From: Chryseobacterium koreense CCUG 49689
GTDB lineage: Bacteria; Bacteroidota; Bacteroidia; Flavobacteriales; Weeksellaceae
Assembly (NCBI RefSeq): GCF_001045435.1
Contig: NZ_LFNG01000012.1
Location: forward strand, 1-64,000
Length of the DNA stretch: 64,000 nt
Direction: 5' to 3'
How positions within the stretch are numbered: the first letter of the stretch is position 1; every line of letters begins with the position of its first letter. The notes beneath the pieces were generated by a model that saw nothing but the letters and a program-made list of their open reading frames with translations, was not told the origin of the DNA and did no database searches. Both the position numbers and the translations under genes were made by a program. Positions 8,536 to 32,092 of the stretch are shown here, one piece after another.

Positions 8536-9112
8536 AATAAAGGAGGTTTTGCTCAGAAGCGGATACAACAATCCCTTTATACTGCATCCCTACGTTTCCC
8601 CCTGAGTCTCCTGGCGTGCGAACACCCGTAGGTGTGAGCCAAAGTAAGCCAAAAGAGGCAAAAGAGGTGAAAAAGGCCAAGAAAAGAGGCAAAAAACCAA
8701 AATTTTCTGGGTGTCGGCGGTCAGGATGCACCATTTTTGCAGAAAAAGCCAACTTTCTGCGGCAGCCAAGGAACACTTCCGTCTGCGACCGTTTCTTATT
8801 TATTCGTGCGCAATGCACCCGGCTGTTTCGTTTACCTTCCCGAATACCCAGTGGGGATGCAGTACCTGTTGTCAGGGAGGACAGTGCAGGATTTTTTGGG
8901 TCGGCATTTCCTTCAGACTGCTTTTTCTGTATTTTGTTTTCCTTTATTCTCCTTTTTCTGTTCCTACTTTTGTCTATCGGAAACCTTGGATGACCTGATG
9001 ATGTTGGGAGCTGAAAACACCTGAAAAACGCCATACAGAATGGCTCATACTTATACCAGTAAAAATACAAAAACAATTGATAATCAGCATCAAAAAGTTA
9101 TAAACATTAACT
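8536..9112. other. No convincing gene
   Basis: Overlapping open frames occur in three frames of both strands, but none has good composition. 8634-8702 is a purine-rich run built on GCCAAAAGAGGC-like units. The longest frame (8471-9076, minus) runs through the palindromic repeat and ends in low-complexity sequence. I see degenerate repeat-derived sequence. Confidence 0.5.
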
Positions 9113-9434: not shown

Positions 9435-10046
9435 TTATAAATCAAAAAATCTTTCAGAACAAAAGAACGGTAAGCATTTTTCTTTTTTGGTTATCACTGA
9501 AAAATCGCTTCTTCCGTATTCTTTATTTAACTGATTCTCAATGGCAGCAAGGGATTTGCTATCATTGAAAAATTTTTGTTCACCATAACAAGGGAAATAG
9601 ATTAAAAAATCAGATCCAAAAACACCTGCTAAACTTTGCAGGAATTTTCGGTATGCATTGATTAAGGAAAAGTTTTTCGCTGAAAACCATTCCTTATTAG
9701 TAATGGAGAAATCCACAATGAATTTGCTTTCATAAAGTTCAATTTCAAAGCAATATGGCCCCATAAATAGGAAACATTCATCCAAATCTATATATTCGTA
9801 ATTCTCGCAATACCAATCAAATTCTGAAACCAATTCGATAGGAAGTTCTCCACTTGGAAATCTCCGGAATTTGGATTGACCTTCAACGATTTTATCTTTG
9901 TGCTCAATGCAAATGGTATTGAGTTTTTTACAGATATTATCAGCAACTTTTTTGAAATTATCCGAATAAATATCAATATGATGTTCGCCTAAAATATGGA
10001 CATAGGCGGTATGATAGTCGGCAAAATAATTTGTATTGTTTCGCAT
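9435..10046 (-). CDS. Hypothetical protein between direct repeats
   Basis: A 203-residue protein, soluble, acidic and aromatic-rich (FDWYCENYEYIDLDECFLFMG), with no signal peptide or membrane helix. I do not recognise a family. It looks like immunity-type or SUKH/Imm-like small proteins in its acidity and high Phe/Tyr content, but no diagnostic motif is present. Its gene sits alone between two ~143-bp direct repeats, next to the defence island, which suggests recent arrival as a cassette. The start at 10046 (MRNNTNYF) gives the longest frame. Confidence 0.65.
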   Translation of the reverse strand: MRNNTNYFADYHTAYVHILGEHHIDIYSDNFKKVADNICKKLNTICIEHKDKIVEGQSKFRRFPSGELPIELVSEFDWYCENYEYIDLDECFLFMGPYCFEIELYESKFIVDFSITNKEWFSAKNFSLINAYRKFLQSLAGVFGSDFLIYFPCYGEQKFFNDSKSLAAIENQLNKEYGRSDFSVITKKEKCLPFFCSERFFDL

Positions 10047-10510: not shown

Positions 10511-12253
10511 TTATTTATCTGCATACATGGAGGTATTAACAATCTCGCTCTCTCTTTCACGAAATTCCTTCTCACCAGAAACAAAAACTTTGATTCCACA
10601 GAAACCTATATTATTCCGATCATCTTCAACTGGAAAGTTTGAAATCAGCATACCATAATTGTAATCGTTCTTTTTGAAGAATATACTACCAAAATCTGCA
10701 TTCAAATCTGCATTCCAGTTTTTATATACTCTATTGCTTTTCATATTATAGCTTGAAGCTATACGAACTGTAACATCTTTCGCATTTAATCTTGTCCCTT
10801 TTGTAGAACTATTATAGACATTTGCGTCAAAAAGCCCATTTAACCTATCATAAACCTCATCTGAAAGAAATGACAACTTATTTCTACCTTCCTTTGTAGA
10901 TAAATCTTCAACTGAAATTGTAAAAATATTGTCAATAGAAGTAAAAATGCCTTCAACCTGTGATATTACAAATTTAGTTTGTGTAGTCAATCCCCTAATT
11001 GAATTATCAATCAATTCTTCTTTCCATTCAGGATCGCTGAAAATCTCCCAATCCTGCTCGAATTTTGCATAATTGCTAAGTAATGGAATACTCGCCATTA
11101 TTCTGAATGTTCGGTTATTGTGATATCCACAACATCTTCCAGCAATTCCTTGCGCACCATTTGCAAGCTGTTTATCTCTCGGCTCAATTCCAAATCTTAT
11201 TTTTTCCTTTAACCTCCCTAAATCCTTCCCAGCGGTTAAGGCTTGAACAATTATTAAAATAACTCTTTTTCCCATCCTCATAATCAAATTTCCTACTTCA
11301 GGGATCCCTTCATTTATTGAAAAGTCACATGCTGAATCAGAGCCGATAACTAAAACTTCAGCATTATGCTTGAGTTTTGATCTCAACATGTTTCTTAATT
11401 CCAATGCACGTAATGTAGTTGATTCTCTAATAATCCCCAATCCATCTTCAAAGTTTGATAAATGTTGAACATATTTAATAACATATGGATGAACTATATA
11501 TTCTCCATTATTCTCCTGCAATGGCGAGAAATCTAAGGGTAAATCATCAATCATATTTTCTCTCAACATTTCTGTGATTCCGAAGTATGTTGGAGGTCTA
11601 ACTCCTTCAACGACATCAATGTCGGCACTTTTGGTAAAATGTGCATCCAGAATATCATAAGGTGTTGCACTTACAGCAACCAACCCAATTTCCGGCAGTT
11701 TGCTCCTTAAATTATCAAAAAACGCAAATTGAAAAGATGACTCTTCACCGCAACCATACTGATCTTCATCTCTAACAATAAGTTGAACTTTAAGGTCACG
11801 TACTGCCTTGAATGGATTTGGATAATTGAAAAATTCGTTCATCTTGGTCACCTTTATTCGCGAATATTTCATCTGACCTTCAGAAGCATCATAGAAATCA
11901 GCTTCTAAATTTCTGTTATTTTGATTGTATAGATCAGTATCGCGCATACTAGTTACAAACAGTACATTATCATGACCACTTAACAATCCAATTGCTGGTA
12001 ACACATAATTGCACAGAAAGTAAATGGTCTTTGATTTACCACTTTGCATAGATGCAACAAATGCTATATTTTGATTTCCTTCCTTTATTGAAAGTCCTAA
12101 CCTTAAAGCATTAATAATCTGATTCTCAAAAATCCCTGTTCTTTGAGAATTTGCAAGCGTATCCACAATGTTGGTGTGAAGAGATGCAGGAGCATCTAAC
12201 TCATCAAGTAAATTTCTGATTTCCTGATTCCAATAGTTCTGATAATCTGTCAT
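10511..12253 (-). CDS. Z1-like SF2 helicase-fold ATPase, defence island
   Basis: A 580-residue ATPase. Walker A is SMQSGKSKT (68-76), motif II is RDEDQ (161-165), motif III is SAT (195-197) followed by PYDIL, then PPTYFG (220-225), and motif VI is QGIAGRCCGY (368-377). This order, with QSGK, xDEDQ, (S/T)ATP, P-x-Y-x-G and Q-x-x-GRxxGY, matches the Z1 family known from MORC/MutL-linked restriction systems and the mza defence system, although it is shorter than typical Z1 proteins. Assignment to Z1 is mine by motif pattern. It probably translocates on or remodels DNA. It is the last gene of the HIRAN operon and also has its own operator-promoter 27-65 bp upstream, in the 69-bp gap after the receiver gene. 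No separate nuclease domain is evident, though the C-terminal 180 residues are uncharacterised. Confidence 0.8.
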   Translation of the reverse strand: MTDYQNYWNQEIRNLLDELDAPASLHTNIVDTLANSQRTGIFENQIINALRLGLSIKEGNQNIAFVASMQSGKSKTIYFLCNYVLPAIGLLSGHDNVLFVTSMRDTDLYNQNNRNLEADFYDASEGQMKYSRIKVTKMNEFFNYPNPFKAVRDLKVQLIVRDEDQYGCGEESSFQFAFFDNLRSKLPEIGLVAVSATPYDILDAHFTKSADIDVVEGVRPPTYFGITEMLRENMIDDLPLDFSPLQENNGEYIVHPYVIKYVQHLSNFEDGLGIIRESTTLRALELRNMLRSKLKHNAEVLVIGSDSACDFSINEGIPEVGNLIMRMGKRVILIIVQALTAGKDLGRLKEKIRFGIEPRDKQLANGAQGIAGRCCGYHNNRTFRIMASIPLLSNYAKFEQDWEIFSDPEWKEELIDNSIRGLTTQTKFVISQVEGIFTSIDNIFTISVEDLSTKEGRNKLSFLSDEVYDRLNGLFDANVYNSSTKGTRLNAKDVTVRIASSYNMKSNRVYKNWNADLNADFGSIFFKKNDYNYGMLISNFPVEDDRNNIGFCGIKVFVSGEKEFRERESEIVNTSMYADK

Positions 12254-12279
12254 AATGCACCGTTTTTATATTAACAGTA

Positions 12280-12318
12280 CAAAGGTGAGCTCTAACTGTG
12301 CAATGAATCTGCACAGTT
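12280..12318 (-). promoter_or_regulatory. Island operator 1 with promoter box, for the Z1-like gene
   Basis: A perfect inverted repeat AACTGTGCA-N7-TGCACAGTT covers 12294-12318; core TGTGCA-N7-TGCACA at 12297-12315. On the minus strand TTTG at 12283-12280 begins 14 nt after the core. The same layout occurs at 16685, 18778 and (one nt longer) 26649. Confidence 0.85.
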
Positions 12319-12322
12319 AAAA

Positions 12323-13444
12323 TTAATCAAGAAAAATATTTTTGATGTGAAGTGGATTATCCTCTTTCGGCTCAATCCTTATCTTCTGATGCAGGGTAAG
12401 TGAATATTGATCCATATGAATTGGCAACACGGAAAATCTAGTCCCATTCTCTGAAATAAAAGTTCCGTATTGGTTTGCAGAAATTTCAGCAATCTCTCCG
12501 GCAATAATATTTTTTCTAATCCACAAACATTTACTTTTTTCTACTGATTCAATATCATTTAAGAATAAATTGAAATAACTAAGAATTTCAAGTAGTGAAT
12601 GAACTATCGAAGAATAAAGATGTTTTGCATTATATTTTGAGCAATATTCTTGAACGCGAAAACTTAGTTTTTCACCACTATGAGAACCATCCTGTGCGAT
12701 ATTTAATGTTCGAAATATCAACTCTCCAATAACAGGATGTATGATTTTTTTTGAAAATTCAAACTCATTGTGTCTGCAATTCAAAAATAAGCTGCAACCG
12801 TTCAACGATTTGATGTCTGGAGAAATTATGTTTAAATATTTTAATTTATTAAACAATTTTTCTAAAATGATTCTTATTGAATTGTAATCATCGAACTCAA
12901 TGGTACTTTCAGAATAGAGTTTTGTTAGAATCTTCAGCAAATCATATTTAGTATCCTTATCCAAATGAAAATCAAATATTTCGAAAGAATCTTGATATTT
13001 ATGAATAAGTTGTGTTTCGAACTGATGATCTGCTTCGTTTTTCAATCTTGTATAAAGCTTTTGGATTTGATTATTGTCTAATTTATCATAAACACAATCT
13101 TCCTTTCCCTCAGATTGAATAAAATCGTTCTCATTTTTAATGTTTTCTTTACCTGTGAGGATAAACCATGGAATATGTTTTTTAGGACGAATGTCTTTTA
13201 ATGAATTTACAACATTCATTAAAGCGGTTTGTCTTGTTGCAATCCCTTCTTCTACAGCAATATTATAGAACAAACCATCCAGAATCGCCGCATCATACCA
13301 CAGAAAGTTTTCCTTTAAATCAGCAATTGCAGTTTCGGCGTTATCAAAAGCAATCAGCTCTATTCCTTCATCAATAGCCATTTGCCTAATATTGAAAAGC
13401 GACTGATGTTCATCATCAACCCAAAAAACTTTATATTTCTTCAT
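12323..13444 (-). CDS. Receiver-domain response regulator with C-terminal helical and OB-like regions
   Basis: From the ATG at 13444 (an upstream TTG at 13450 is less likely) the protein has 373 residues. Residues 1-130 are a receiver domain with the acidic pair D10/D11 in FWVDDE, phospho-acceptor D56 in AAILDGLF, T97 in FILTG and K121 in VYDK, so phosphorylation looks possible. There is no standard DNA-binding output domain. Residues 200-300 are helical and include a GSHS...LLEILSYF stretch like HEPN-type helices. The last 65 residues (IIAGEIAEISANQYGTFIS...) have the spacing of a cold-shock/OB fold. Both output guesses are weak. The gene overlaps the kinase gene by 14 bp, so translation is probably coupled and this is the kinase's cognate partner. 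The Z1-like gene follows. Confidence 0.85.
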   Translation of the reverse strand: MKKYKVFWVDDEHQSLFNIRQMAIDEGIELIAFDNAETAIADLKENFLWYDAAILDGLFYNIAVEEGIATRQTALMNVVNSLKDIRPKKHIPWFILTGKENIKNENDFIQSEGKEDCVYDKLDNNQIQKLYTRLKNEADHQFETQLIHKYQDSFEIFDFHLDKDTKYDLLKILTKLYSESTIEFDDYNSIRIILEKLFNKLKYLNIISPDIKSLNGCSLFLNCRHNEFEFSKKIIHPVIGELIFRTLNIAQDGSHSGEKLSFRVQEYCSKYNAKHLYSSIVHSLLEILSYFNLFLNDIESVEKSKCLWIRKNIIAGEIAEISANQYGTFISENGTRFSVLPIHMDQYSLTLHQKIRIEPKEDNPLHIKNIFLD

Positions 13445-15905
13445 CGTCAATTTGTAAATCGTCTAAATTTACAAATTCTTGCTGATAAGGAAGTGATATT
13501 TCAAAAGTTGTCGCAAGATCAGTATCATCCAAACCTTCTGGACCAGTCTCGTCAACAATATACCAATCTCCGCCAAAATATTTGATGATTTGGTCAATGA
13601 TATATCCTCCCATTCCACTTCCACCTTTTTTCCCCTTCTTTATTCCTTTTGATTTAAAATCTTCAAAAGTAAAATTCGCCGGCAGTGGATTTCCAGTATT
13701 TGAAATGAAAATAGTGGTGGTCCCAAATTCTTTATCCATTGATCCTGAAACTTCAATTCTTCTCACTTCATCTTTTCCCCAATTAAATCCGTGTTTCTTA
13801 ATATTGGAAATTAGATTGTCAAGTAAAATACAAAACAGATCTTCATTTCCAATTATGAAAACTTTGAAATCATCACTCTTTATATCATTCAAATTGATGT
13901 CAAATAGAATATTGGGATTTTTCTCACCGACATTCTTAAAATAATTTTCCAAGAATGGCACAATTTCAATTGATGAGACAGTATATTCACTCGCAACAAA
14001 GTCTTCCGTTTGACTTCTGACTTCTTCTGTAATCCTTCTTGAATCCTTAACTAAATTCTCAATCAATTCTCCCAAATTTAACAATTGATTATCATTCAAC
14101 TTTAAAGAAAATAATTGAGGAAATTCTGGCAGGACTTTTCTGTCAAGAATATGTTGAATATTAGTTGCAAAAAATTCCAAATTAGAAACTGAGCCTGCAA
14201 TTTTATGTCTTAGAATTGCATTTTTTTCCGCGTCCTTTATTTGAAAATCTTTATCAACTTTTTGAATTTCATCTTGAAGTTCTTTAATAGCGTAACTTAA
14301 TTGTTCCTCTATTTTTTCAGTCTGTAATTCTGATGAAACCAAATTGATTTTGATTTTCAACAAATCGTTAATTCGTAAATCTCTTACAACCGATCCAAAA
14401 ACTTGCGCTTCCACCTGTTTTTGAACATAATCTTTATTCAACTCGCTTACTAAATACTTGTAAGAAATAACATCTTCATCTATGATTTTTAGCAGAGCAA
14501 TCCTTTGGTGAGAAAGCACAGCATGCTTACCTGAAAAATAAGTTGCGTTTAAAGTTCCTCCTATTAGTGATACCAAAATGCCCTCTTCATCCAGAACATT
14601 GTAATACATTAAATTTTCTAGTGTAGAGATTGGTTCCAGCAAATCATAATTAATAGAAGGTAATATTTTTGAATCCTTTCCCAGATCTCGCACAGTTAAA
14701 ACCTTGGAAATATCACTTAAATTTTCCGGCTTCCGCCTTTTCGAAACTTCTACTAACTCATGCAGTGGAGTTCCATGCAACTCTTCTAGGAAATAAACTT
14801 TACCCTGCAAATTATAATCGCTCTTTCTTATATCTTCTGCATCAACGAAAACTGATTCCCATGGTTGAAAAAGAAAATTGTCCAATTCAAAGCTGTCCCA
14901 ATCAATATATAATTTTCGGTTTCTGTATTTTGAAAGGTAATTGTCAATGTCAATAAATTCTATTTTTGAACTTAATTTCGCGGTATTTAATACCAAAACG
15001 TTTGTTGCAACATTGGTATGTCTGAAAACGCCAGTCGGGAAAATAAGGACTTTCTCAACAAGATTTTCATCCACCAGTTTTCGAAAAAGTTCTTTATCTG
15101 CTTTTCGTCCCGAAGAAAGGAAAGCAGGTCGAACGAAAAGAATAATCTTTCCACCTATTTTAACTGTTGAGAGCGATTGTTGAATAATAAAATTTTCCAA
15201 ATCAATCCTATCTCCAAATGTGTCTTTTACATCGATCCTATTAAGAATCGGCAATCGGGAAAAAATTAAATCAAATCGTTCTTCTGAAGGCCAATTCTCA
15301 ATACTGCTTTCTAAAACATAATTGAATCCTATTTTTTGGTGCGCCCAAAGTCTCAATTTTCCAACTCGCCAAATTTCCGGATTGTATTCTTGTCCAAAAT
15401 ATTCAGTATTATCTTTTAGTTCAGTAACAATTTCCGCATTGGATGCAAACGGATTGTAGACCCTTTGCACATTTTTGACCATCGCAATGTCAAAAACCAA
15501 TTTCATCAACTTAGGATGAACTATAAATGCACCATTCTTGAAAGATAAGGACTCGGTTATCACTTTAAAAATAAAATCAAATAACTCCGAAAATTGATTT
15601 TCAAAGTAAGACTTTTCAAGCAAAGAGAAATAAGTAAATATTTGAATAAGGTCATCAGATGTAAAAAAACTCAATACACGAAAATTCGGTAATAATTTGA
15701 ATAATTCTGAGGGATTATTGTATTCATCTACTTGTTTCAATTGATGAACAATTTCTGAAATACGCCGATTTTTATCAATTGCTTCATCTTTGTAAATGCA
15801 TAGCAATAAAAGTGTAAGCGTATAATCGTTGGGCGTAATAAACCCTTTACGACTATAAAATGAAGTAATGATCGTGTTAACTTCAATGATTTTTTTCTTA
15901 TCCAT
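13431..15905 (-). CDS. Degenerate type I methylase/TRD-histidine kinase fusion
   Basis: 824 residues from the ATG at 15905 (MDKKKIIEV); an upstream ATG at 15965 would overlap the ASCH pseudogene. Residues 1-320 follow the HsdM layout: helical N-terminus, GxxxxHPKLMKLVFDIA, then VYNPFASNAEI where HsdM has DPACGSG, YFGQEYNPEIW, and FDLIFSRLP where HsdM has NPPF. The SAM-binding glycines and the catalytic NPPF are lost, so methylation is unlikely. Residues 378-540 resemble half an HsdS: a target-recognition domain plus coiled coil. Then comes a HisKA-like helix with ILRHKIAGS (H567), and a HATPase with N-box LLDNLISNIKKHG (N697, N701), SNTGNPLP as a modified G1 box and GGSGMGG (761-767) as G2. 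It is therefore a predicted DNA-recognising histidine kinase, coupled to the receiver gene downstream. Confidence 0.85.
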   Translation of the reverse strand: MDKKKIIEVNTIITSFYSRKGFITPNDYTLTLLLLCIYKDEAIDKNRRISEIVHQLKQVDEYNNPSELFKLLPNFRVLSFFTSDDLIQIFTYFSLLEKSYFENQFSELFDFIFKVITESLSFKNGAFIVHPKLMKLVFDIAMVKNVQRVYNPFASNAEIVTELKDNTEYFGQEYNPEIWRVGKLRLWAHQKIGFNYVLESSIENWPSEERFDLIFSRLPILNRIDVKDTFGDRIDLENFIIQQSLSTVKIGGKIILFVRPAFLSSGRKADKELFRKLVDENLVEKVLIFPTGVFRHTNVATNVLVLNTAKLSSKIEFIDIDNYLSKYRNRKLYIDWDSFELDNFLFQPWESVFVDAEDIRKSDYNLQGKVYFLEELHGTPLHELVEVSKRRKPENLSDISKVLTVRDLGKDSKILPSINYDLLEPISTLENLMYYNVLDEEGILVSLIGGTLNATYFSGKHAVLSHQRIALLKIIDEDVISYKYLVSELNKDYVQKQVEAQVFGSVVRDLRINDLLKIKINLVSSELQTEKIEEQLSYAIKELQDEIQKVDKDFQIKDAEKNAILRHKIAGSVSNLEFFATNIQHILDRKVLPEFPQLFSLKLNDNQLLNLGELIENLVKDSRRITEEVRSQTEDFVASEYTVSSIEIVPFLENYFKNVGEKNPNILFDINLNDIKSDDFKVFIIGNEDLFCILLDNLISNIKKHGFNWGKDEVRRIEVSGSMDKEFGTTTIFISNTGNPLPANFTFEDFKSKGIKKGKKGGSGMGGYIIDQIIKYFGGDWYIVDETGPEGLDDTDLATTFEISLPYQQEFVNLDDLQIDDEEI

Positions 15906-15942
15906 ATTTTGTTTAGTAATCCTACTTAATGATAATATAAAA

Positions 15943-16293
15943 TTAGCAAATTTGGCGCTCAACAATTCTTCTTCTCCAATATTTTTCCGAACCTTGTTGC
16001 AAAGAAAAAATTCTCCTGTTCAAATCTTTTTCCTCAATTCCTTCATCCTGTGCAATGAAAATTTCTTTGCATTTCACTATCATTTGAGGTCCGTTTTTAT
16101 GATAGCCCATCTGAAATTTCACAGTTTCATATTTTTTAGATTCCAAAATTTCGCCTTTTTCATCTACAATACAAAGCCGGTTGGCATAATAATCTGTAAA
16201 ATCTCTATATTCATCAGTCTTTCTGCCCTCGAGTATTCCGGTGAACCATTATTTGGTAAGAACAAATTAAAGCTACTTTTCGTGAGTTTTCAT
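15943..16293 (-). pseudogene. ASCH-domain-like gene with three in-frame stop codons
   Basis: The frame starts at an ATG at 16293, 3 bp after the HIRAN gene's stop, and reads MKTHEK*L*FVLTK*WFTGILEG, then stays open for about 100 codons (RKTDEYRDF...FQMGYHKNGPQMIVKCKEI) to a stop at 15943. The motif K-x-W-F-x-x-I-x-x-G-x-K-x-x-E-Y-R...GY..N.P.M is that of small ASCH (RNA-binding-like) proteins. All three stops (TAG, TAA, TAA) are one C-to-T change from a Gln codon, and Gln before WF is usual in the family. It fits between HIRAN and kinase genes as an operon member that was recently inactivated. Confidence 0.7.
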
Positions 16294-16296
16294 GAT

Positions 16297-16623
16297 TTAA
16301 TAGACTTTCTCTTTTTCTGGAATTAAATGTACCACAATTTCCACCATCCTTTCCGTGTGTTCATGCGGATCTACTTTTTGGATTCTCGCTTCAAACTGGG
16401 TAATTCCCACTTTTAAGAATTTATAGAAAATCCGGTTTTCAGTTCTTGGAATGAAGCCAATTTTTTCACCTTTAAAATAAATAGCAACGGCTCTCGGATC
16501 CCATTTGTTATCTTCTTCCAGTTCAAATTTTACTTTCTTGCCAACTTTCAACTTTTGGAAAACGGAAACGCCTTCGTAAAATGTGAAACCTGCAACGTGG
16601 AAATGGGCTAAATGTTCTTTCAT
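16297..16623 (-). CDS. HIRAN-domain protein
   Basis: A 108-residue protein made up of one HIRAN domain (HFHVAGFTFYEG...LKVGKKVKFELEEDNKWDPRAVAIYF...KIGFIP). HIRAN domains, first known from the helicase HLTF, bind the 3' ends of single-stranded DNA and in bacteria often occur alone or fused to nucleases and helicases. It is the first gene of the operon leading to the ASCH pseudogene, the kinase, the receiver and the Z1-like ATPase, so it may supply DNA-end recognition to that system. A copy of the island operator lies 62 bp upstream of its start. The ASCH frame begins 3 bp after its stop. Confidence 0.92.
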   Translation of the reverse strand: MKEHLAHFHVAGFTFYEGVSVFQKLKVGKKVKFELEEDNKWDPRAVAIYFKGEKIGFIPRTENRIFYKFLKVGITQFEARIQKVDPHEHTERMVEIVVHLIPEKEKVY

Positions 16624-16667: not shown

Positions 16668-16703
16668 CAAAGTTGCGCAACAGGTGTGCAGCAGAAATGC
16701 ACA
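16668..16703 (-). promoter_or_regulatory. Island operator 2 with promoter box, for the HIRAN operon
   Basis: TGTGCA-N7-TGCACA at 16685-16703 (GTGTGCA...TGCACAC). On the minus strand TTTG (16671-16668) begins 14 nt after the operator, the same offset as at the Z1 and TIR promoters. The spacer GCAGAAA is almost the same as GTAGAAA in operator 3. Confidence 0.85.
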
Positions 16704-16763: not shown

Positions 16764-18026
16764 TTAATCAAACTCAATCAGATTTTCTTCATCAATCTCA
16801 AGGGCTTTCACCTGCTGAACAGCGTTTCCGGCAATTCCACGGATGGAACCATACATATTCACAGTGTTGGAAATGACTTTTTCAATCTGTTTTTCCCGCT
16901 TCTTCCAGTTGCTCATCGTGGATCGTTTTTCTTTTTCCAAATCTTCGCGCATCTGCGAAAACCCTTCCACAATTCCCTCAATTTGGTGTCTGAACTCATC
17001 ACTGGTTAAGAAATCATACAACATCGACATCTTATCACCTTTGTTCTCCTGATTCTGAACTGCCATTGCGACCTGAATCAGTGACTGACGAAGAACCATT
17101 ACCAATCCCTTGAACTCATCGAAAGTACAGATCCAGATTCCGTCGCGCATTCCCATTCTTTCCATTCCGGCAGGAAGTACTTCAGTGACCAGAACGCCGA
17201 TATTGGCTTTCTTTTCGCGGATGTCTGCCTTGAATTTCTCCATCCAGGATGGCTGAAAATTCTTCGTTCTTTTGCTTTCGTAATAGATGGTTCCGCAATT
17301 TTGGATTTCGTAGGTGTTGACAGTTTGCAGACAGTCTGCCCCGTTTGCACCTTTCTTGATTTCATCAATTAAGTCAAGTGGAAACTGTTGAGCCAGATAT
17401 TCCTCGATGGCGAGTTCCATCACTTCTCCCTGTAGCTGCATCGATCCCTGTTCCTGCTTGCGTTTCATTTCTTCGGTAAGCTTCTTCTGATCGTCAATTT
17501 GCTTCTGAAGTTCTTTTTCGCGAAATTCAAATTTGTCTTTTTCCAACTTGGCGATTCGCTCGCGCTCAACACTGAGTTTTTCGTTAAAGGATTTTTCCGC
17601 TTCTGCCTCTAACTCGTCCCTCATTTCACGTTTTTCTCTTTCAAGTTTTGCAACCTGAGTTTCCAGTTTATTAAGCTTTTGAATTTTCTCAGATTTTTCA
17701 TTCAGTTCTTTCTGAAGAGCGTCTAAGCTATCTTTCTGTTCATCTTCAAGCTGCTTCTTGATCTTCAGATGCAATTCTGCTTCTGCATCTTTTTTAGCTG
17801 CAGCCAATTTCTCTGCGAATATTTCATCCTGCTGTTGTTTCTGTTTCTCAAAATCCTCCTTTGCTTTATTGAAATCTGATAATTTCTTCGTTAAAGCATC
17901 TTCCTGACTTTTTGCTTTTTGCTCAAATTCTTTTCTTAAACCTTCCTCAATTTGATGTTTAAGAATGTCGTTCACGTCGATTGAAGTTCCGCAATTAGGG
18001 CACTGTACAGCTGTTGTGTTTTTCAT
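16764..18026 (-). CDS. DUF2130 protein with zinc ribbon, coiled coil and nuclease-like core
   Basis: A 420-residue DUF2130-family protein. It begins with CPNCG (C9, C12), half of a zinc-binding site, followed by a very long coiled coil (residues 25-195). The conserved core carries GEVMELAIEEYL (E201), GANGADCLQTV (D231) and IYYESKRTKNF (E250, K252). The E...D...ExK arrangement fits a PD-(D/E)XK nuclease; that catalytic reading is my inference. The gene lies 20 bp downstream of the TIR gene and no promoter is visible between them, so they form a two-gene operon under operator 3. Family members are often found near mobile elements. The pairing with TIR suggests a shared role in defence. Confidence 0.88.
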   Translation of the reverse strand: MKNTTAVQCPNCGTSIDVNDILKHQIEEGLRKEFEQKAKSQEDALTKKLSDFNKAKEDFEKQKQQQDEIFAEKLAAAKKDAEAELHLKIKKQLEDEQKDSLDALQKELNEKSEKIQKLNKLETQVAKLEREKREMRDELEAEAEKSFNEKLSVERERIAKLEKDKFEFREKELQKQIDDQKKLTEEMKRKQEQGSMQLQGEVMELAIEEYLAQQFPLDLIDEIKKGANGADCLQTVNTYEIQNCGTIYYESKRTKNFQPSWMEKFKADIREKKANIGVLVTEVLPAGMERMGMRDGIWICTFDEFKGLVMVLRQSLIQVAMAVQNQENKGDKMSMLYDFLTSDEFRHQIEGIVEGFSQMREDLEKEKRSTMSNWKKREKQIEKVISNTVNMYGSIRGIAGNAVQQVKALEIDEENLIEFD

Positions 18027-18760: not shown

Positions 18761-18798
18761 CAAAGTAAAAACAGACCTGTGCAGTAGAAATGCACAGG
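18761..18798 (-). promoter_or_regulatory. Island operator 3 with promoter box, for the TIR operon
   Basis: A perfect inverted repeat CCTGTGCA-N7-TGCACAGG (18776-18798; core 18778-18796). On the minus strand TTACTTTG ends with TTTG at 18764-18761, 14 nt after the core. It lies between the stop of the PIN gene and the TIR start. Confidence 0.88.
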
Positions 18799-20514: not shown

Positions 20515-21780
20515 TTATTTCTTCACTCCCGCCTTCTTCAGCTCCATTATCTCCTTCAGCAGATCTTTCGCGTCGCCGTCTGTAGGAAGCTGGGGAACAA
20601 GTTCGCCTTTGAATGCTTTGTGCAGGATGACCTGTGGAAGCTGCTCTACTTTTTTCTTTAGTTTTTGGTAGCGGCTTTCGATGGCGTCGGCTTTGGCGAA
20701 AAGGGATTCGATGCGGGAAACGATTTCTTGTTGTTCAATTATAGACGGTACTCTTGCTTCAATATCATAAATTTTTGATCCTGAAATAACAGGTTGTGCT
20801 GTAGAATTATTGTATGTTCCCAATTTTAGATATTTCAACAAAAAAAATAAGAATTTAATATTATTATCCATTAAATTATCAACAATCAAAGCATTATCAG
20901 TTACCCAAGCTAATTCTGAAGTCAAATGAATACTTCCACAATAAAATCCAACCCTACCTATGACAATTGTTTCTTGAAAAATATTTGCCTTATTATGGTA
21001 TCCGGTAATTCCATTACCTCCAAAAACCGGAATTGCACCAACTTCTCTCTGATTCGCAGATAATGAATTCCCAGATTTAACTTTAATAATATTTTTTAAC
21101 TTTTCTTCTCTCCACTCCTCCAAATCCTTTCCTTCCCGCCATTTCTCTGTCAGTTTCCCCGTCACCGCCTGTGTTAAAACCTGCTGCCGAAAATCTTTCA
21201 GCAGTTGCGGAATTTTGTCCAAAGATTTTTTGATGGTTTCGTGCTGTGCAAAAAGCGCATCTAATTTGGCAACAATGCGTTCCTGCTCGGGAAGTGGAGG
21301 GAGAGGAAATTTCATATTTTCCAAATACTCCTTGCGAATATTATTAATATTCACGCCTCCAGCTAATTCAGCAATTAAGTTTCGATAATATTTAGTCTGA
21401 AAAAAGTAAGAATGAAATTTTTTATCAATTTTCCTTGTTCTTAAAAGCATTAGAAATGCACCGAATGCAACCGAATCAAAATCTTGTTCAGCAATTCCAG
21501 CCTTACCAATTAATTTCTTACTTCCGGTTGAGCCAACAATTACAACATCATACTTCTTAACAAATTGATTTTCGTTTATCAATGTCTTATCTACAAAAAC
21601 ATTGTCGTCCGTTTCAAAGTCTAATTTTTCATCTTGAATATTTCCACCTCGAAGAATGTAAACAGAATTTGCATTTGAATCAGAAAAAGCCTGATCTTTT
21701 TTATATGAAACGCCTCTAATAATTTCTGAAACATTACCTATACTTGTCTGTACCCAATTCTTCGGCAAGTTATTCTCCAT
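20515..21780 (-). CDS. hsdS: Type I restriction enzyme specificity subunit HsdS
   Basis: A 421-residue specificity subunit with the usual two half-repeats. Residues 5-150 are target-recognition domain 1. Residues 158-215 are a conserved linker and coiled coil (FPLPPLPEQERIVAKLDALFAQ). Residues 220-350 are target-recognition domain 2. Residues 352-400 are the second coiled coil (PSIIEQQEIVSRIESLFAKADAIE). It sets which split DNA sequence the complex methylates or cuts. Full length and intact. A palindromic hairpin separates it from hsdM (75-bp gap). The two recognition domains are dissimilar, so the recognised site should be asymmetric; the site cannot be read from the sequence. Confidence 0.95.
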   Translation of the reverse strand: MENNLPKNWVQTSIGNVSEIIRGVSYKKDQAFSDSNANSVYILRGGNIQDEKLDFETDDNVFVDKTLINENQFVKKYDVVIVGSTGSKKLIGKAGIAEQDFDSVAFGAFLMLLRTRKIDKKFHSYFFQTKYYRNLIAELAGGVNINNIRKEYLENMKFPLPPLPEQERIVAKLDALFAQHETIKKSLDKIPQLLKDFRQQVLTQAVTGKLTEKWREGKDLEEWREEKLKNIIKVKSGNSLSANQREVGAIPVFGGNGITGYHNKANIFQETIVIGRVGFYCGSIHLTSELAWVTDNALIVDNLMDNNIKFLFFLLKYLKLGTYNNSTAQPVISGSKIYDIEARVPSIIEQQEIVSRIESLFAKADAIESRYQKLKKKVEQLPQVILHKAFKGELVPQLPTDGDAKDLLKEIMELKKAGVKK

Positions 21781-21855: not shown

Positions 21856-23307
21856 TTACGCCAGTTCTTTTATCAAATCATTTAACTCTTTTTCTATCGC
21901 TTTCAGTTCGTGGAGTGCTTCTTTGGCAATATCCAAAGGTTCTCCCAAATCCTCGGCATTGGTTAAACTGCTATCCGCAATCAGTCCCAAATCCAGCGTA
22001 TCGTTTTTGGCGGCAATGGTTTCGCGGGAAATCTTCTGCCATCTTTCGTCCTGTATTTCAGCACGCTTAGCTTCATCAAAATCGCCATCAAATTCCATTA
22101 AGTCTTCCGGTTTCGTTCCACCGGTGTATGCGAGGATCAAATCGTCAAACGCCTTTTCGGTAAACGGCGTTCGTTTTCCGTAACTCGGCGTGTTGGTGCG
22201 CATATCGTAAAACCAAATATTTTGGGTATTGGCTTCGTCTTTTTTTCCACGGGTAAAGAACAGGACATTGGTTTTCACTCCGGCTGCATAGAAAATTCCC
22301 GTGGGCAAACGCAGAATGGTGTGCAGGTTGCACTTTTCCATCAAATCTTTCCGGATGTGTTGTCCGTCGCCGTCTTCAAACAAAACATTGTCAGGTAAAA
22401 CCACGGCTGCTTTTCCGCCCGGTTTCAGACTTCGGTAAATATGCTGCAGAAAGTTGAGCTGCTTGTTGCTCGTAAGAAAAGTAAGGTCGTCGCGTGTTGG
22501 TCTTTCACCACCTTTCTTGGTTCCAAACGGCGGATTTGCGAGAACTCCATCGAAATTTTTCAGTCCTTTTCCTAAGGAAGTGAGCGTATCACCAAGCATA
22601 ATGCGGCTTTCCATTCCGTGTAATCTTGCATTCATCAAAGCCAAACGGTGTGCATCGGCAACGAGTTCTACCCCGCTCATCGCATCTTCCAACTGAAAGT
22701 TCCTTGCCTTACCTTCCAAACTGTAGAGGTAATCGTATTTGTCGAGCAAATATTGATTGGCAGAAATCATAAATCCAAAAGTTCCGCAAGCAGGATCGTT
22801 CCAGCGTTCGCCGGGTTTCGGCGCCATCAGTTTTACCATCACATTAATCAGCGGACGAGGCGTAAAATATTGTCCGGCACCGCTTTTCTTTTCGCCCGCA
22901 TTTTTTTCGAGCAGACTTTCGTAGATGTCGCCCATCACATCGCGGTCGGTTTCCTCGTACCAATCCAGTTTATCAATTGCCTGAACCAGTGTATTGAAGT
23001 TCACAGGTTTAGTTAAAGTAGTGGAAGCATTAGTATAAATTTCTTTTACGCTTTCGCTAGAAGTTTCGTTGCTCACGGTTGCCAGAAATTCCCGGTAAAG
23101 GTTGAAAGCGGCGACATTGTCGGTTTCTTTCACAAATTTTTCCCAACGGTATTTTTCGGGGAAGTCGTTTGCGAACCCTTTTACTTCTGAAAGTTTCAGG
23201 AAGAGGATGTAGGTTAGTTCGTTTAGATATTGGTGATAGGTAACGCCATCATCACGAAGGACGTTACAGAGGTTCCATAGTTTGTTTGCTATTTCCTGTG
23301 CGGACAT
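21856..23307 (-). CDS. hsdM: Type I restriction N6-adenine methylase HsdM
   Basis: A 483-residue methylase subunit. It has the HsdM N-terminal helical domain (residues 5-130), SAM motif I WNDPACGTFGF near 168-178, and the catalytic NPPF motif in GVLANPPFGTKKGG. Downstream motifs LKPGGKAAVVLPDNVLF and LRLPTGIFYAAGVKTNVLFF are typical. It methylates adenine within the site chosen by HsdS, marking self DNA. Unlike the kinase fusion at 13431, all catalytic motifs are intact, so this is the functional comparison inside the same island. It lies 60 bp after hsdR, with a hairpin in the gap. Confidence 0.96.
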   Translation of the reverse strand: MSAQEIANKLWNLCNVLRDDGVTYHQYLNELTYILFLKLSEVKGFANDFPEKYRWEKFVKETDNVAAFNLYREFLATVSNETSSESVKEIYTNASTTLTKPVNFNTLVQAIDKLDWYEETDRDVMGDIYESLLEKNAGEKKSGAGQYFTPRPLINVMVKLMAPKPGERWNDPACGTFGFMISANQYLLDKYDYLYSLEGKARNFQLEDAMSGVELVADAHRLALMNARLHGMESRIMLGDTLTSLGKGLKNFDGVLANPPFGTKKGGERPTRDDLTFLTSNKQLNFLQHIYRSLKPGGKAAVVLPDNVLFEDGDGQHIRKDLMEKCNLHTILRLPTGIFYAAGVKTNVLFFTRGKKDEANTQNIWFYDMRTNTPSYGKRTPFTEKAFDDLILAYTGGTKPEDLMEFDGDFDEAKRAEIQDERWQKISRETIAAKNDTLDLGLIADSSLTNAEDLGEPLDIAKEALHELKAIEKELNDLIKELA

Positions 23308-23367: not shown

Positions 23368-26300
23368 TTACGCATAAAGTTCGGTATTGAGCTCGGCGAT
23401 TAACGGTTCCAGCTCATAATTAAATATCTTGTCTAATCGTTTGAAACCTCCTTCATCAATGAAAGGTTTCAGATCAAGGTCTTTTTTGGTAAGCACCGAT
23501 TCTGCAAGCAACTGTTTTTCGAAGCGGTCGATCCACTTGGTTTGTATGGCATTAAAAGATTTTTTCTGTTTGATCTTTGCAATGGCATTTTTTATGCGCT
23601 GTTCGTGGCTTATCAAATCGGTCCCCAAAGACAGGGTGCGAATATAGGCAATAATATCTGCTGCAATGTCCACGTTTTTTGTAGATTTCCAGGCGGTGTT
23701 GAGATGGGATTCAGTATAACCTTTTTCGTCAAGCAATAATTTAAGTTCTTTTAAGGATTTGCGGTCCAGATCCTGTGGCCTGTTACAGATGATTCTAATA
23801 GCGTCGATCGTGTTCTTATTGTCTTCGATAAAGGTTTTGAAACCTTCGATATAATCTTCGGGCTTGGATGCATTTCCGTAACCGCGCCTCACCTCTCTTA
23901 CCTGATCCGGATGGTCTGAAATAAATTGTGGGATTGGTTTATAAACTTTTTGGTCGAGAAAATCCCATAAATCAACATGTTCTTTAATAAAACCATATAA
24001 ATCCTGACCTTTTTTCTCTTTCAGCGTTTTCATAAAATCTTCCACAGAAACCTCTCGGGAGTAAAATGCAAAAGTTTCTTTTTGCTCCTCCGACATTTTC
24101 TTTAGCTTGCGATTAAGCTTGGCAGAGATTACATCTGCCTGTTTCCTAAGGATGTCGTCATTTCTTATCTTATCCAGTTCATCTGTAAGCTGCTTGAAGG
24201 TAAAAGATGGATTGGAAACCGGCTTCATCGTAGTGAATTCTTCCATGGCTTCATACTGCTTCACCGCATCAAAGATTCGGAATGATTCTTTCCCAATTTC
24301 CGGACACAATCTTGTCGCGCGACCAAGCATTTGCTCATAAAGAATTCTTGACTTCACTCTTCTCAAAAATACGATATTGCAGATGGGACGCACATCTACT
24401 CCCGTGGAAAGCAAATCTACCGTAACTACAATATTTGGATATTTTTCGTATTTGAAATCCCGAGTTAACTGTTCGTTATTATACACCGAACCGGTAATTT
24501 TCACAATAGCTTTATCGTGTAGATCCACTCCAATATTTTCGAATTCCTCTTTCAGCAAATCCACCACCGTATCGGCGTGGGAATCGCGAGCTGCAAAAAT
24601 CAAAGTTTTTTCTTCTCCTTCAGGATCGAGATATTCTACAAGCTTTTTTACGACCTCCCTGTTGAAGTTTTCATTAAGCACTCTTTTATTGAAATCATCA
24701 ATTTCGAATTTCAAATCGTCTTCTAATTCAGCCAAATCCACAATTTCTCCCGTTGCCAGATCATAAACTGTTGGTTTTTCACCTTTCTGCCATTTTATTC
24801 CTTCGGAATTCAGTTCGGTAACGATTTCAAACGGCGGTTCAAAATCCACGAGATAACCGTCGATCACTGCCTGTCTATAGGAATAGCTGTAAGTCGGCAT
24901 TCCGAAAACCTGCGTCGTGTGAAGTGCTGGCGTTGCAGTAAGTCCGATTCTGTAGGCATCGAAATATTCAAGAACTCTCTTATATTGGGAAAAATAGTCT
25001 TCTTCGTTCTTGAAAAGCAGTTCGTCATCATCCAGTTCCTTATCCAAATTGTAGCCGCGATGTGCTTCATCTACGATGATGCAGTCATAAGCATCAACCG
25101 TTAATGGCGGTTCGTCAGAATAAAAGAGCCGTTTTACCATACTTTGAACCGTGGCAAAATGCAGCCGTGTTTCGGAATCGGGTCTTGCGATTTTAAGTTC
25201 CTCTAGCTTGTAGATACCGGAAAAAGATTCCATTAATTCTATCTTATTCTCCTTTATGCTGTCAATAGCCTGCTTTGAAAGTAGTCGTCGGTCAGTAAGA
25301 AACAAAATTCTTTCAAATCGATTGGCTTTGATCAAGCGGTAAATTAATCCATTTATGGTTCTTGTTTTCCCGGTTCCCGTTGCCATGACAATAAGCGCTT
25401 TCTGCTCTTCGGGCTGATTAATAATTTTATCTTCAACAGCATTGATTGCATCAAGCTGATAATAATAAAGATTAAGACCATTTTTGGAAGTCAGATAATC
25501 AGGATTGCTGTCCTGCAATTTCTGATTGGCTAAATGAATGTCTCTTTCAAAAAGCTCTTCTAAACCTTTTGGCGAATACCAACCACGCAATGGCCGTGAG
25601 CGGTTTGTAGAAATTCTGATATCCTGAAACCAGATTCCGCTTTTAGTTCTCAACTGCTCAAAATACGCTCTACCGTTCGTGGAAAAAGCAAACGGAACTT
25701 TATAATCTTCCCAGATTCCGAGATTATTAACTTCTTCTTTAATAACGATATTTTCAGCATATACTTTCGACTGATAAAGGTCTGTAGAAATATCCGTCCC
25801 AAATCTTTTTGCTTCTACCACCGCATATAATTTTGTCCCTACAAATAAAGCATAATCCACATAACCACCTTTGCATGGCCATTCTGCAATCGCCATATTT
25901 CTGTTTTTCTCGGGAAGTGTTTTATGGGTTTTATAATTGACGGTTTCGGTATCGCATTCCCAACCTGCATCCCGCAACTGCGGGTCAATCAGTTGAATCC
26001 GGGTTTCTTTCTCACTCCACTGAATTTTGTCTGCTTTTTGCTCCGCAAGTTTTCTTCTGCTTGCTTTCTGTTCTTCAGAAATATTGAAGTTTCTAATTTT
26101 TTCTTCGTACTGCTGAATGGTTATCGTAAGACCTTCAAGTTTTTTATTCAGTTCTTCAATTTCTTCCTTGTTTTCAGTCGGTTGAAGCGGAATGTATGTT
26201 TTATCGGCGATAAAGTCATTTTCATAGGTTTCGAAAAACCACACCAATAATTTATATATGCTTTCGAGGGTGGATAAAGCTTCTTCCTTTGTGCCAATGC

Positions 26301-26586
26301 CTTCATGCGACGCCGTATTCCCGGATTTTCTAATGAAGTGAAATAGGTTTTTCACCTGATCCGGCAATATATTATAATATTTCAGGAAGTTGATAATGTC
26401 AACTTGCTTCATGTCCACGACTTCCAGCTCCTCAAATGCTGCAATGAAACGAATCAGCTTTTCAGCTACCAACCTCGATTTTGCAATTGACGAACTCGGA
26501 TCAACGAAGTATAATTTTTCGGCTACTGTAGCAAACTGAAACAGCTCCTCATAAGTTGGCAGAAGAAAAGTGAACTTTGATTCCAT
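23368..26586 (-). CDS. hsdR: Type I restriction endonuclease subunit HsdR
   Basis: A 1072-residue motor and nuclease subunit. Residues 20-130 resemble DUF4145 (FIRKSGNTASHEG). The nuclease domain has YVDYALFVGTKLYAVVEAKR near residues 242-261, giving the D...ExK motif. The SF2 motor has MATGTGKT (Walker A, about 402-409), VDEAHRG (motif II), GLTATP (motif III), STGVDVRP and QMLGRATRL (motif VI). The C-terminus is of the EcoEI type. It translocates DNA and cuts unmethylated DNA at a distance. It is the first gene of the hsd operon and carries island operator 4 in its promoter, suggesting restriction is switched with the other defence genes. Confidence 0.96.
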   Translation of the reverse strand: MESKFTFLLPTYEELFQFATVAEKLYFVDPSSSIAKSRLVAEKLIRFIAAFEELEVVDMKQVDIINFLKYYNILPDQVKNLFHFIRKSGNTASHEGIGTKEEALSTLESIYKLLVWFFETYENDFIADKTYIPLQPTENKEEIEELNKKLEGLTITIQQYEEKIRNFNISEEQKASRRKLAEQKADKIQWSEKETRIQLIDPQLRDAGWECDTETVNYKTHKTLPEKNRNMAIAEWPCKGGYVDYALFVGTKLYAVVEAKRFGTDISTDLYQSKVYAENIVIKEEVNNLGIWEDYKVPFAFSTNGRAYFEQLRTKSGIWFQDIRISTNRSRPLRGWYSPKGLEELFERDIHLANQKLQDSNPDYLTSKNGLNLYYYQLDAINAVEDKIINQPEEQKALIVMATGTGKTRTINGLIYRLIKANRFERILFLTDRRLLSKQAIDSIKENKIELMESFSGIYKLEELKIARPDSETRLHFATVQSMVKRLFYSDEPPLTVDAYDCIIVDEAHRGYNLDKELDDDELLFKNEEDYFSQYKRVLEYFDAYRIGLTATPALHTTQVFGMPTYSYSYRQAVIDGYLVDFEPPFEIVTELNSEGIKWQKGEKPTVYDLATGEIVDLAELEDDLKFEIDDFNKRVLNENFNREVVKKLVEYLDPEGEEKTLIFAARDSHADTVVDLLKEEFENIGVDLHDKAIVKITGSVYNNEQLTRDFKYEKYPNIVVTVDLLSTGVDVRPICNIVFLRRVKSRILYEQMLGRATRLCPEIGKESFRIFDAVKQYEAMEEFTTMKPVSNPSFTFKQLTDELDKIRNDDILRKQADVISAKLNRKLKKMSEEQKETFAFYSREVSVEDFMKTLKEKKGQDLYGFIKEHVDLWDFLDQKVYKPIPQFISDHPDQVREVRRGYGNASKPEDYIEGFKTFIEDNKNTIDAIRIICNRPQDLDRKSLKELKLLLDEKGYTESHLNTAWKSTKNVDIAADIIAYIRTLSLGTDLISHEQRIKNAIAKIKQKKSFNAIQTKWIDRFEKQLLAESVLTKKDLDLKPFIDEGGFKRLDKIFNYELEPLIAELNTELYA

Positions 26587-26630: not shown

Positions 26631-26667
26631 CAAATATAACAAAACATCTGTGCAACTAAAGTGCATT
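26631..26667 (-). promoter_or_regulatory. Island operator 4 with perfect TAnnTTTG box, for hsdR
   Basis: TGTGCA-N7-TGCATT at 26649-26667, one arm imperfect. On the minus strand a perfect TATATTTG box (TTTG at 26634-26631) starts 11 nt after the operator. The operator overlaps the last codons of the WYL gene and the -33 region of hsdR. Confidence 0.8.
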
Positions 26668-27655
26668 AATAATAATTGTTTAGATTTCTCACCCTCGCTT
26701 GAACACGATCTACAAATTCACTTGGTTTCAAGACCTTCATTTTTTCGCCGAAAGACAAAATTAATGCTTCTAATTCATAATTAAGCTTCACCTCTAAAGT
26801 CAAAATATTTCCTTTCACTTTTTGCGAACCATGTAATGGTTTTGTGATGATGTACGGAATAATATTTTCGGACAATTCTATCGTTACTGTTACGGGTTCC
26901 TCGTCCAAATTATTACTCACGCCAATAATTTCCTCAAAATACTCATTGAAGTCTATTTCACTTTCTACAAAAGTGCTTTTAAAGGATTCAACACGTTCAA
27001 TACGATCCAGCGCAAGATTGTTAATGTATTTTTCTTTATTATTCCAACCAAACAAAAACCATCGGTTATTGTACTGTTTCAGATAGTAAGGCGAAATCTC
27101 AAAAGAGGAAACCGTTTTTGATTTAAAACTTTTGTACAAAATTGTAATCGGCTGCTTATTGAGGATAAACTGATAGAGTGTACTTAGGAATTCGAGACCC
27201 TTCAGATATTCGTTAACTTCAAAATCAATAACTTTTTTCTCGGTATGTTGCAGATTTAAGCCCGCATTAATTTTTGTCGTAATTTCCTCAATCCAATCGA
27301 AACCGGGAAGATTTTTCATTCTGCTCATTGTTTCCAAGGCTTCTGTAAGTTGTCCAATTTCTTGTGAGGACAACGGTTTCTTAAGGATAGAAAAATCAGG
27401 ATCGGAATATCTGTAGAAGACCTTACGACCGTCCTGAATGCTCTCAATGGGTGCATCATAACCAGCTTCACTTTTCATGAAATCCATATCGTCAAAAATC
27501 TGACGGCGTGATACTGTGGTTTCTGTTGCGTAATGATCTGTAAGAACATTGGAACAATATTCAATCAGATCATTGATGTAGAATTTTTTATACGGATTTG
27601 AGAAGCATTTGTCCAATGCTTTATAACGAATAACCGCGTTTTTGTTTTGAGCCAT
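26666..27655 (-). CDS. WYL-domain transcriptional regulator of the island
   Basis: A 329-residue regulator from the ATG at 27655 (MAQNKNAVIRYKALDKCF); an upstream frame to 27757 encodes an unlikely hydrophobic tail. Residues 1-75 are a winged-helix DNA-binding domain (FYINDLIEYCSNVL...VSRRQIFDDMDFM). Residues ~140-235 are a WYL domain (ITILYKSFKSKTVSSFEISPYYLKQYNNRWFLFGWN, with the later LALDRIERVE), and the C-terminus is a WCX extension. Such regulators (BrxR, CapW types) repress defence operons and respond to a ligand, perhaps nucleic acid. It lies immediately upstream of hsdR on the same strand and is the natural candidate to bind the four shared operators. No copy of the operator is visible upstream of its own gene. 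Confidence 0.9.
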   Translation of the reverse strand: MAQNKNAVIRYKALDKCFSNPYKKFYINDLIEYCSNVLTDHYATETTVSRRQIFDDMDFMKSEAGYDAPIESIQDGRKVFYRYSDPDFSILKKPLSSQEIGQLTEALETMSRMKNLPGFDWIEEITTKINAGLNLQHTEKKVIDFEVNEYLKGLEFLSTLYQFILNKQPITILYKSFKSKTVSSFEISPYYLKQYNNRWFLFGWNNKEKYINNLALDRIERVESFKSTFVESEIDFNEYFEEIIGVSNNLDEEPVTVTIELSENIIPYIITKPLHGSQKVKGNILTLEVKLNYELEALILSFGEKMKVLKPSEFVDRVQARVRNLNNYY

Positions 27656-27872
27656 TAATTTTTTTCGTGGAATGGTAAAAATACAAAATGCAATTGAAAG
27701 AAAAAAAAGGTAATCCATATAGGGTGTATGGGTGTAAACAAATTTTCCTATTAACACGCTGTAGGATTATGCAACTGAATGAAACGGATATTTTGAAATG
27801 TTTTCTTTTACTTTGATTTACTAAGTTTTTTTTGAAAAAAAACAAAAAAAATATTCACTAAAAATTAATTCC

Positions 27873-31873: not shown

Positions 31874-32092
31874 ATGTGAAAACCTGCACCCATCCTGCAC
31901 CAAGAAAGCATTGTAGGCATCATCACCTCGCAAAATGCAGTGAATGGGGCATTATGGCAGTATAGTGGGCTGGCTGGTAATGCGGCTTAATGGTCGGTAA
32001 AGAAGCATATTTTGCGATACAGAAAGTAAAATTTCTTTTAATAATGCTGTTTTTGAAGCATTGAAGTGTACAAAAGCAGTACAGATTTTACC

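Follow-up and report, generated by a model that had tools for sequence, protein, structure and literature searches.

A defence island on the minus strand of contig NZ_LFNG01000012.1 of Chryseobacterium koreense CCUG 49689, analysed here as a window of 64,000 nucleotides, contains a hybrid histidine kinase whose input half resembles a type I restriction-modification enzyme, directly followed by a response regulator gene. The kinase gene (13431..15905, minus strand, as for all parts of the island below; 824 amino acids, aa) overlaps at its 3' end the response regulator gene (12323..13444; 373 aa), and the receiver has all its phosphorylation residues, as the first-pass annotation of this DNA had noted. 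The reading that we favour, at a probability of roughly 0.55 and on the strength of sequence comparison, is that the two form a soluble two-component pair whose input, made of an HsdM-like methylase and one HsdS-like target recognition domain (TRD), would be triggered by DNA, and whose receiver would act on RNA or protein. The domain make-up, complete residue sets, adjacency, joint variation, purifying selection and residence in defence islands with a WYL-linked operator are all established by the sequences compared below. The annotation had called the combination unfamiliar, and neither the fusion nor the operon was found in full-text literature searches; these revealed no description of a histidine kinase with a restriction-enzyme-derived input half, in a literature that left preprints and most subscription papers outside, so that a prior account is possible.

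Our main set consists of 41 loci, window included. It omits L040, L062 and L065, which are cut or broken, L071, in which a 1463-aa open frame (L071:6559-10950) includes the kinase and perhaps an extra domain, and L074, a Prevotella metagenome-assembled genome with two divergent kinase-receiver pairs in tandem, whose motifs also diverge. Loci on the same contigs were dropped (L028 is L036, L030 is L069, L031 is L044, L032 is L059 and L035 is L073), and the near-copy pairs L027/L036, L034/L073 and L043/L044 were retained, one of each being removed for a 38-locus co-variation test. A separate phylum sample of 395 genomes, with at most two candidates scored per genome, gave at least 12 genomes (the window's own included) with a match reaching into the kinase part; its 11 other loci include 9 new ones, L133 and L134 being L070 and L039.

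Pfam recognizes N6_Mtase and HATPase_c in the window kinase, and a profile built from 41 sequences finds, one after another along a single chain, similarity to the EcoR124II M subunit (2e-44), to S subunits and to histidine kinases. The protein can be divided into an N-terminal region of ~100 aa, an HsdM-like pseudo-methylase (~104-372), an HsdS-like TRD with helical linker (~375-560), and a dimerization and histidine phosphotransfer (DHp) domain with an ATP-binding domain (~560-815). A profile of the C-terminal part matches solved kinases at 1e-9, the alignment to 2c2a covering both DHp and ATP domains, and HATPase_c is found in 40 of the 41 kinases. The phospho-acceptor histidine is present in all 47 aligned kinases; H567, N701, N736, G738, G764 and G766 are invariant in the main set (41/41) and in the phylum sample (11/11), and N697 is kept in 40/41 and 8/11, respectively. 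The product of 13431..15905 has, by alignment, the complete set of histidine kinase residues, and is predicted to autophosphorylate. These domain profiles, together with the complete kinase and receiver residues, bear out the annotated pair with its methylase/TRD-derived input half.

The receiver is the next same-strand gene after the kinase in every locus of the main set, with a gap of -25 to +3 bases, and directly follows it in 11/11 phylum-sample loci. Across 38 loci, pairwise identities of the DHp/ATP domain and of the receiver domain correlate at r 0.966 (partial r 0.95 given the methylase part), a value reached in 0/1999 permutations. Contiguity alone is insufficient to produce this value, since the equally contiguous flanking junctions correlate less (TRD to kinase, r 0.69; receiver to middle domain, r 0.63; 41 loci). 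In L051 and L070 the sequences agree as far as kinase residue ~540, diverge, and agree once more from receiver residue ~135 onward; the block exchanged in L061 and L064 begins earlier, near residue 330. Judged from these alignments, the pattern looks like exchange of a cognate kinase-receiver block.

The response regulator comprises a receiver domain, a helical middle domain and, as relatives suggest, a C-terminal OB-fold of the S1/cold-shock type. Positions D10, D11, D56, T97 and K121 form the receiver site, and the phosphorylation places are kept in 41/41 proteins (T or S at 97) and in 11/11 of the phylum sample, where E replaces D10 in two and position 97 is again T or S. Between the window protein and its E. 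bovis counterpart the receiver domain has a ratio of nonsynonymous to synonymous substitution rates (dN/dS) of 0.05; this and the other dN/dS values below come from these two sequences only, with dS of 0.8-0.9 in the parts of the kinase protein. In the middle domain R191 and H255 are invariant (41/41; 11/11 and 10/11 in the phylum sample). The OB-fold is recognized as S1CSD-TOTE-2 in 12/39 receivers at E 0.1 (best 2e-6), and solved cold-shock proteins match the receiver at E 0.06 and weaker, ranked under a tektin coiled coil (0.003) and a response regulator (0.035); some receivers, such as those of L029, L060, L067 and L069, stop before the OB-fold. No convincing helix-turn-helix occurs among the receiver families listed (25 of 27, for 39 receivers). 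In view of this lack, of the helical domain, of the OB-fold in relatives and of island promoters with what seems to be a WYL operator, the most probable targets of the receiver are RNA or protein, by way of the translation or activity of neighbouring defence proteins, and it is less likely to be a classical transcription factor.

The N6_Mtase fold is found in all 41 kinases, with motifs that depart from those of active enzymes. The window kinase has NPFASN at motif I, which in methylases binds S-adenosylmethionine (SAM), SRLP at the catalytic motif IV, and an altered motif X region. That an ordinary active methylase was misread through sequencing errors can be dismissed: the frame is open, two 83% identical relatives from other genomes share motif changes of this kind, the two canonical motifs were seen together in no relative, neither in the 41 loci nor among the more distant kinases, and nothing was found in its favour. 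Motif I reads NPFAGLAS in 37 kinases, NPFAS in the 3 of the window clade and NPFMGLGS in 1; one contig scan was seeded with peptide patterns including the altered motif I and biases the motif-I counts derived from it, and the family and phylum searches did without those patterns. At the catalytic motif 22 kinases read NPP and 15 read xPP, so that PP is retained in 37/41; the window clade and L069 make up the 4 that have lost it. QE of the acidic motif is kept in 40/41. The distant relatives L140 and L141 (G360, G685) have DPVAGSG or DPVAGTG at motif I and ADLP instead of NPPF, and other distant ones have neither motif. The annotation's term "dead" methylase is therefore well grounded only for the window clade, with motifs I, IV and X all changed. 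Put in terms of the cofactor, loss of SAM binding is well founded from the motifs of the window clade and can only be supposed for the family, because several neighbouring HsdM proteins themselves use a GTA-type motif I such as DPSAGTA, and 11/34 fit no pattern applied. A tree built from the methylase parts of 38 kinases together with 33 adjacent HsdM proteins puts kinases and HsdM into distinct groups (support 100/100). The window clade falls within the kinases, on a long branch of 2.79 changes per site, and the tree program warned of long branches and of a bootstrap that had not settled. The dN/dS of the methylase part is 0.12, as low as in the TRD and kinase parts. This shows, as far as motifs and substitution rates tell, a non-catalytic methylase fold under purifying selection, and therefore one maintained for something besides methylation.

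One such function could be to sense SAM, for instance its destruction by phage, and to alert SAM-dependent defences. Retention of PP and QE looks as if the cofactor pocket were kept in most kinases, the canonical motif I of L140 and L141 suggests that some distant kinases may still bind SAM, and many neighbours are SAM-dependent systems. We nevertheless consider SAM sensing decidedly unlikely, given that motifs X, I and IV are all changed in the window clade and that the TRD, which would be of no use to a pure SAM sensor, is under equal purifying selection (dN/dS 0.10).

A profile of this TRD part matches solved S subunits at 6e-15, and Pfam Methylase_S is found in 27/41 kinases at E 0.1; the window protein matches PADLOC Specificity_I (1e-7) but not Pfam Methylase_S. 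The first-pass annotation had offered the TRD as a detector of a DNA sequence or its methylation state. A version in which it reads the site of the partner methylase is weakened by our comparison: the kinase TRD and the neighbouring HsdS vary with r -0.19, and the kinase methylase part and HsdM with r 0.16 (51/1999 permutations as high). Since HsdM and HsdS vary nearly independently of the kinase, its TRD does not appear to track the adjacent restriction specificity. The same figures bear on the proposal that the kinase stands in for a methylase subunit in the HsdM/HsdS complex and signals how far the complex is occupied. Its HsdM ancestry and frequent operon with HsdM-HsdS would suit such a role; little or no joint variation, the occurrence of the pair beside BREX, DpnII or an ATPase, and the L034 and L073 kinases, 98-100% alike in every part beside HsdS proteins only 33% alike, make it very improbable.

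The palindrome TGCA-N7-TGCA was first noticed in the gap between the receiver and the next gene of several loci, and then tested elsewhere. With at most one mismatch it lies at -110 to +70 of the kinase start in 36/41 loci, against a mean of 1.4 and a maximum of 7 in shuffles preserving base composition, and exactly in 26/41 (shuffles, mean 0.07, maximum 1); some one-mismatch matches, such as that at +44 in L069, are probably due to chance. In the window, L027 and L036 no operator is found near the kinase start (3 mismatches); their exact copies lie upstream of the ATPase gene and at HIRAN, either before it or close by. The window has six exact copies where 1.03 are expected, and 1/100 dinucleotide-preserving shuffles reaches six. 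Four of these precede hsdR (26651..26665, between the WYL gene and hsdR), the TIR gene (18780..18794), HIRAN (16687..16701, the likely head of a HIRAN-kinase-receiver unit) and the ATPase gene (12299..12313), with TTTG at 31, 30, 30 and 30 bases, respectively, from the operator start. Of 29 exact operators close to kinase starts, counted without near-copy loci, 28 have the same tetranucleotide at exactly 30 bases. The island form of promoter and operator is accordingly TGCA-N7-TGCA-N15-TTTG, with a spacing of 16 at hsdR; its TTTG fits a Bacteroidota -7 element (TAnnTTTG). Two further exact copies (8727-8741 and 31885-31899) have no TTTG at the expected spacing on the one strand inspected, and are probably fortuitous.

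Immediately upstream of the hsdR copy lies the gene at the head of the island, a WYL-WCX regulator (26666..27757; Pfam WYL 3.8e-13, WCX 1.5e-9), which is the probable owner of the operator. WYL matches occurred in 114 genomes, and the 30 best were taken; 20 of these loci are from genomes without a methylase-to-kinase profile match. Another of the 21 loci initially taken, G004 (L150), has the kinase. In the kinase-free genomes 15/20 loci have an exact motif between -60 and +220 relative to the WYL stop, usually overlapping the stop, and 3/20 have one upstream; 200 shuffles preserving base composition, run on all 21 loci (16/21 with an exact motif after WYL), gave a mean of 0.07 and a maximum of 1. 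Since the motif follows WYL genes even where the kinase is missing, and the regulator BrxR is described as binding a palindrome at its own promoter (PMC9122589), the operator most likely belongs to WYL, which would bind it. It could alternatively be the kinase TRD that reads this palindrome, bipartite like a type I site, as the enrichment near kinase starts might suggest; its presence beside WYL stops in genomes free of the kinase makes this barely credible.

Immediately after the receiver comes HsdM in 24/41 loci, a DUF2130 gene in 6, an ATPase in 3 and others in 8, with HsdM at this place in 6/11 phylum-sample loci. HsdM lies within the fetched stretch in 34/41 loci, and WYL stands immediately before the kinase in 31/41. 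Other defence modules are varied. In L033/G018 the pair stands between BREX on its upstream side and a DpnII-type system that follows it; BrxA, BrxB, BrxC, PglX, PglZ and BrxL lie upstream of HIRAN-ASCH-kinase-receiver-ATPase in G170; a DruE-cluster gene is upstream in L029, L042 and L048 (the L029 member being Druantia III by PADLOC, and L048 having a DruH-like gene); L069 has a helicase and a retron-type reverse transcriptase, L037 a UG19-kind reverse transcriptase, and L043 a HerA-type gene with a mad8 match at 1e-14. Because neighbouring modules differ, and HsdM and HsdS vary nearly independently, the pair is a portable unit, which recurs in Bacteroidota next to restriction and other anti-phage genes. 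Phage defence in these bacteria may thus be wired to a signal switch that reads DNA.

In the window the pair is followed by an SF2-type ATPase (10511..12253) and preceded by a 108-aa HIRAN protein (16297..16623; Pfam 6e-16) and by the relic of an ASCH-domain gene (15959..16266) with an in-frame stop and a frame change. The last two had been annotated as HIRAN and a broken ASCH gene, and for the latter tblastn with the open E. bovis protein agrees; that open copy itself matches Pfam ASCH at 0.0037, below the cut-off. A self-contained chain, with DNA sensed by the kinase and the ATPase turned on by the receiver as its dedicated effector, would account for the three genes standing together in the window, G170 and E. 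bovis despite different upstream neighbours (BREX in G170, type I in the other two). The ATPase is also the most conserved of four proteins compared with E. bovis (93% identity, dN/dS 0.04), and a 64% copy exists in a fourth kinase locus, L067. Yet that copy follows HsdR, and the ATPase has its own operator and promoter and comes after the receiver in loci of one clade only, two of them near copies. In 395 order and 395 class genomes, overlapping sets with G170 and E. bovis not among the matches, the ATPase was found in its own genome only. We consider this chain unlikely. Of the three genes in the annotation's model, a fixed association is supported for kinase and receiver but not for the ATPase; taken as a whole, the annotated observation stands in part and its interpretation is supported in part. 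Directly after the ATPase, L027:4663-5580 and L036:14470-15387 have a 305-aa gene without a Pfam family, at which place the window has a 203-aa gene (9435-10046).

On the favoured reading of a DNA-triggered pair, in which the stimulus, the target and the sense of the effect on it are all inferred, WYL would set the transcription of operator-bearing units, and the kinase-receiver pair, as one such unit, would add a second layer of control. The methylase-TRD half, locked as a binder, would read a DNA feature common to groups of relatives rather than the site of the adjacent restriction system. Binding of DNA by a dimer might change the helix running from the TRD into DHp and so switch autophosphorylation of H567, from which the phosphate would pass to D56 of the receiver. 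The receiver output could then alter the expression or activity of neighbouring defence proteins post-transcriptionally, and the SF2 ATPase of the window, co-regulated with the pair through an operator-promoter of its own, may be among the targets. In a more specific version DNA itself is the direct stimulus: the input half reads an invariable sequence on foreign DNA, or the methylation of that sequence, and the phosphorelay to the receiver tunes whichever module is plugged into the WYL-controlled island, be it type I restriction, BREX, Druantia, DpnII or the SF2 ATPase; we put it forward tentatively, the odds being somewhat against it. If correct, Bacteroidota immunity would have in this pair a portable control unit that DNA sets off. 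A DNA input would provide a direct route from foreign DNA to a phosphorelay and make the coordination of several defence systems within one island testable. The TGCA-N7-TGCA-N15-TTTG form is a genomic handle on co-controlled genes in Bacteroidota islands, with or without the kinase.

Several points weigh against the favoured reading. The C-terminal half had been annotated as a HisKA/HATPase kinase, and H567, the N-box, the G-boxes and HATPase_c agree, but the Pfam HisKA model matches none of the kinases. Response_reg is found in just 1/39 receivers at E 0.1, below the cut-off, and the window protein scores 20.1 bits where the cut-off is 30.2. The middle domain is only weakly similar to DUF4145/HEPN (hhalign E 0.009, probability 4.5%), the window receiver itself matches no OB-fold model, and one receiver of 39 has a winged-helix match at a chance-level E of 0.07. 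Kinase and receiver ends adjoin, so linkage contributes to their correlation. Conservation of the TRD might reflect a structural role instead of DNA reading, and the methylase motifs differ again in the distant L137-L143, from absent to DPVAGSG without NPPF, where the input may differ. Finally, the two-sequence dN/dS values come with dS of 0.8-1.1, and 2.4 in the OB-fold, near saturation.

Known systems resemble the pair in parts. Detocs, a two-component-based anti-phage system with a different sensor and effector, likewise uses kinase-receiver signalling. Type I HsdM and HsdS (EcoR124II M; S subunits 5ybb and 3okg) have the same fold and order as the input half; the kinase differs in being a single polypeptide with one TRD, a kinase fusion, an altered motif I and, in the window clade, a lost motif IV. 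The PADLOC models of MADS, the methylation-associated defence system, match the methylase part (mad2, 3.5e-11) and the TRD part (mad5, 2.9e-6) of the window kinase, but not its kinase part, and the eight other window proteins scanned have no mad match. HEF_HK/Response_reg_2 pairs (PF19191, PF19192) are also soluble, adjacent kinase-like and receiver-like genes enriched near restriction-modification genes; unlike the present kinase they are associated with paraMORC ATPases and with type II systems of the C5-methylase kind, with no methylase/TRD fusion in the portion of the report available (PMC8011034). Neither family appears among those listed at E 0.1 for the 41 kinases (all 17 families) or for 39 receivers (25 of 27). 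Like BrxR-type regulators, the window regulator combines WYL and WCX domains, at the head of an island with a palindromic putative operator at the promoter; the BrxR operator has half-sites 5 apart and lies upstream of the regulator (PMC9122589), whereas here the spacing is N7, TTTG stands at 30 and the motif usually lies just after the WYL gene.

The island as a whole extends from 27757 to 10511, in the order WYL-WCX, HsdR, HsdM, HsdS, M78 peptidase-like, DUF4411, TIR, DUF2130, HIRAN, broken ASCH, kinase, receiver and SF2-type ATPase. Its DUF2130 coiled-coil protein (16764..18026; Pfam 5.7e-73) is a recurring accessory of kinase islands, and the TIR protein (18047-18736) matches ThsB1 of Thoeris in PADLOC at 4e-114. 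The type I system consists of HsdR (23368..26586; Pfam EcoEI_R_C 2.9e-38), HsdM with its NPPF motif present (21856..23307; N6_Mtase 3.7e-70) and HsdS (20515..21780; Methylase_S 3.7e-31). The window HsdS is ~40% identical to that of E. bovis (L082:18479-19861), against 84% for HsdM and 68% for HsdR; by these identities, this is a specificity exchange between otherwise related islands.

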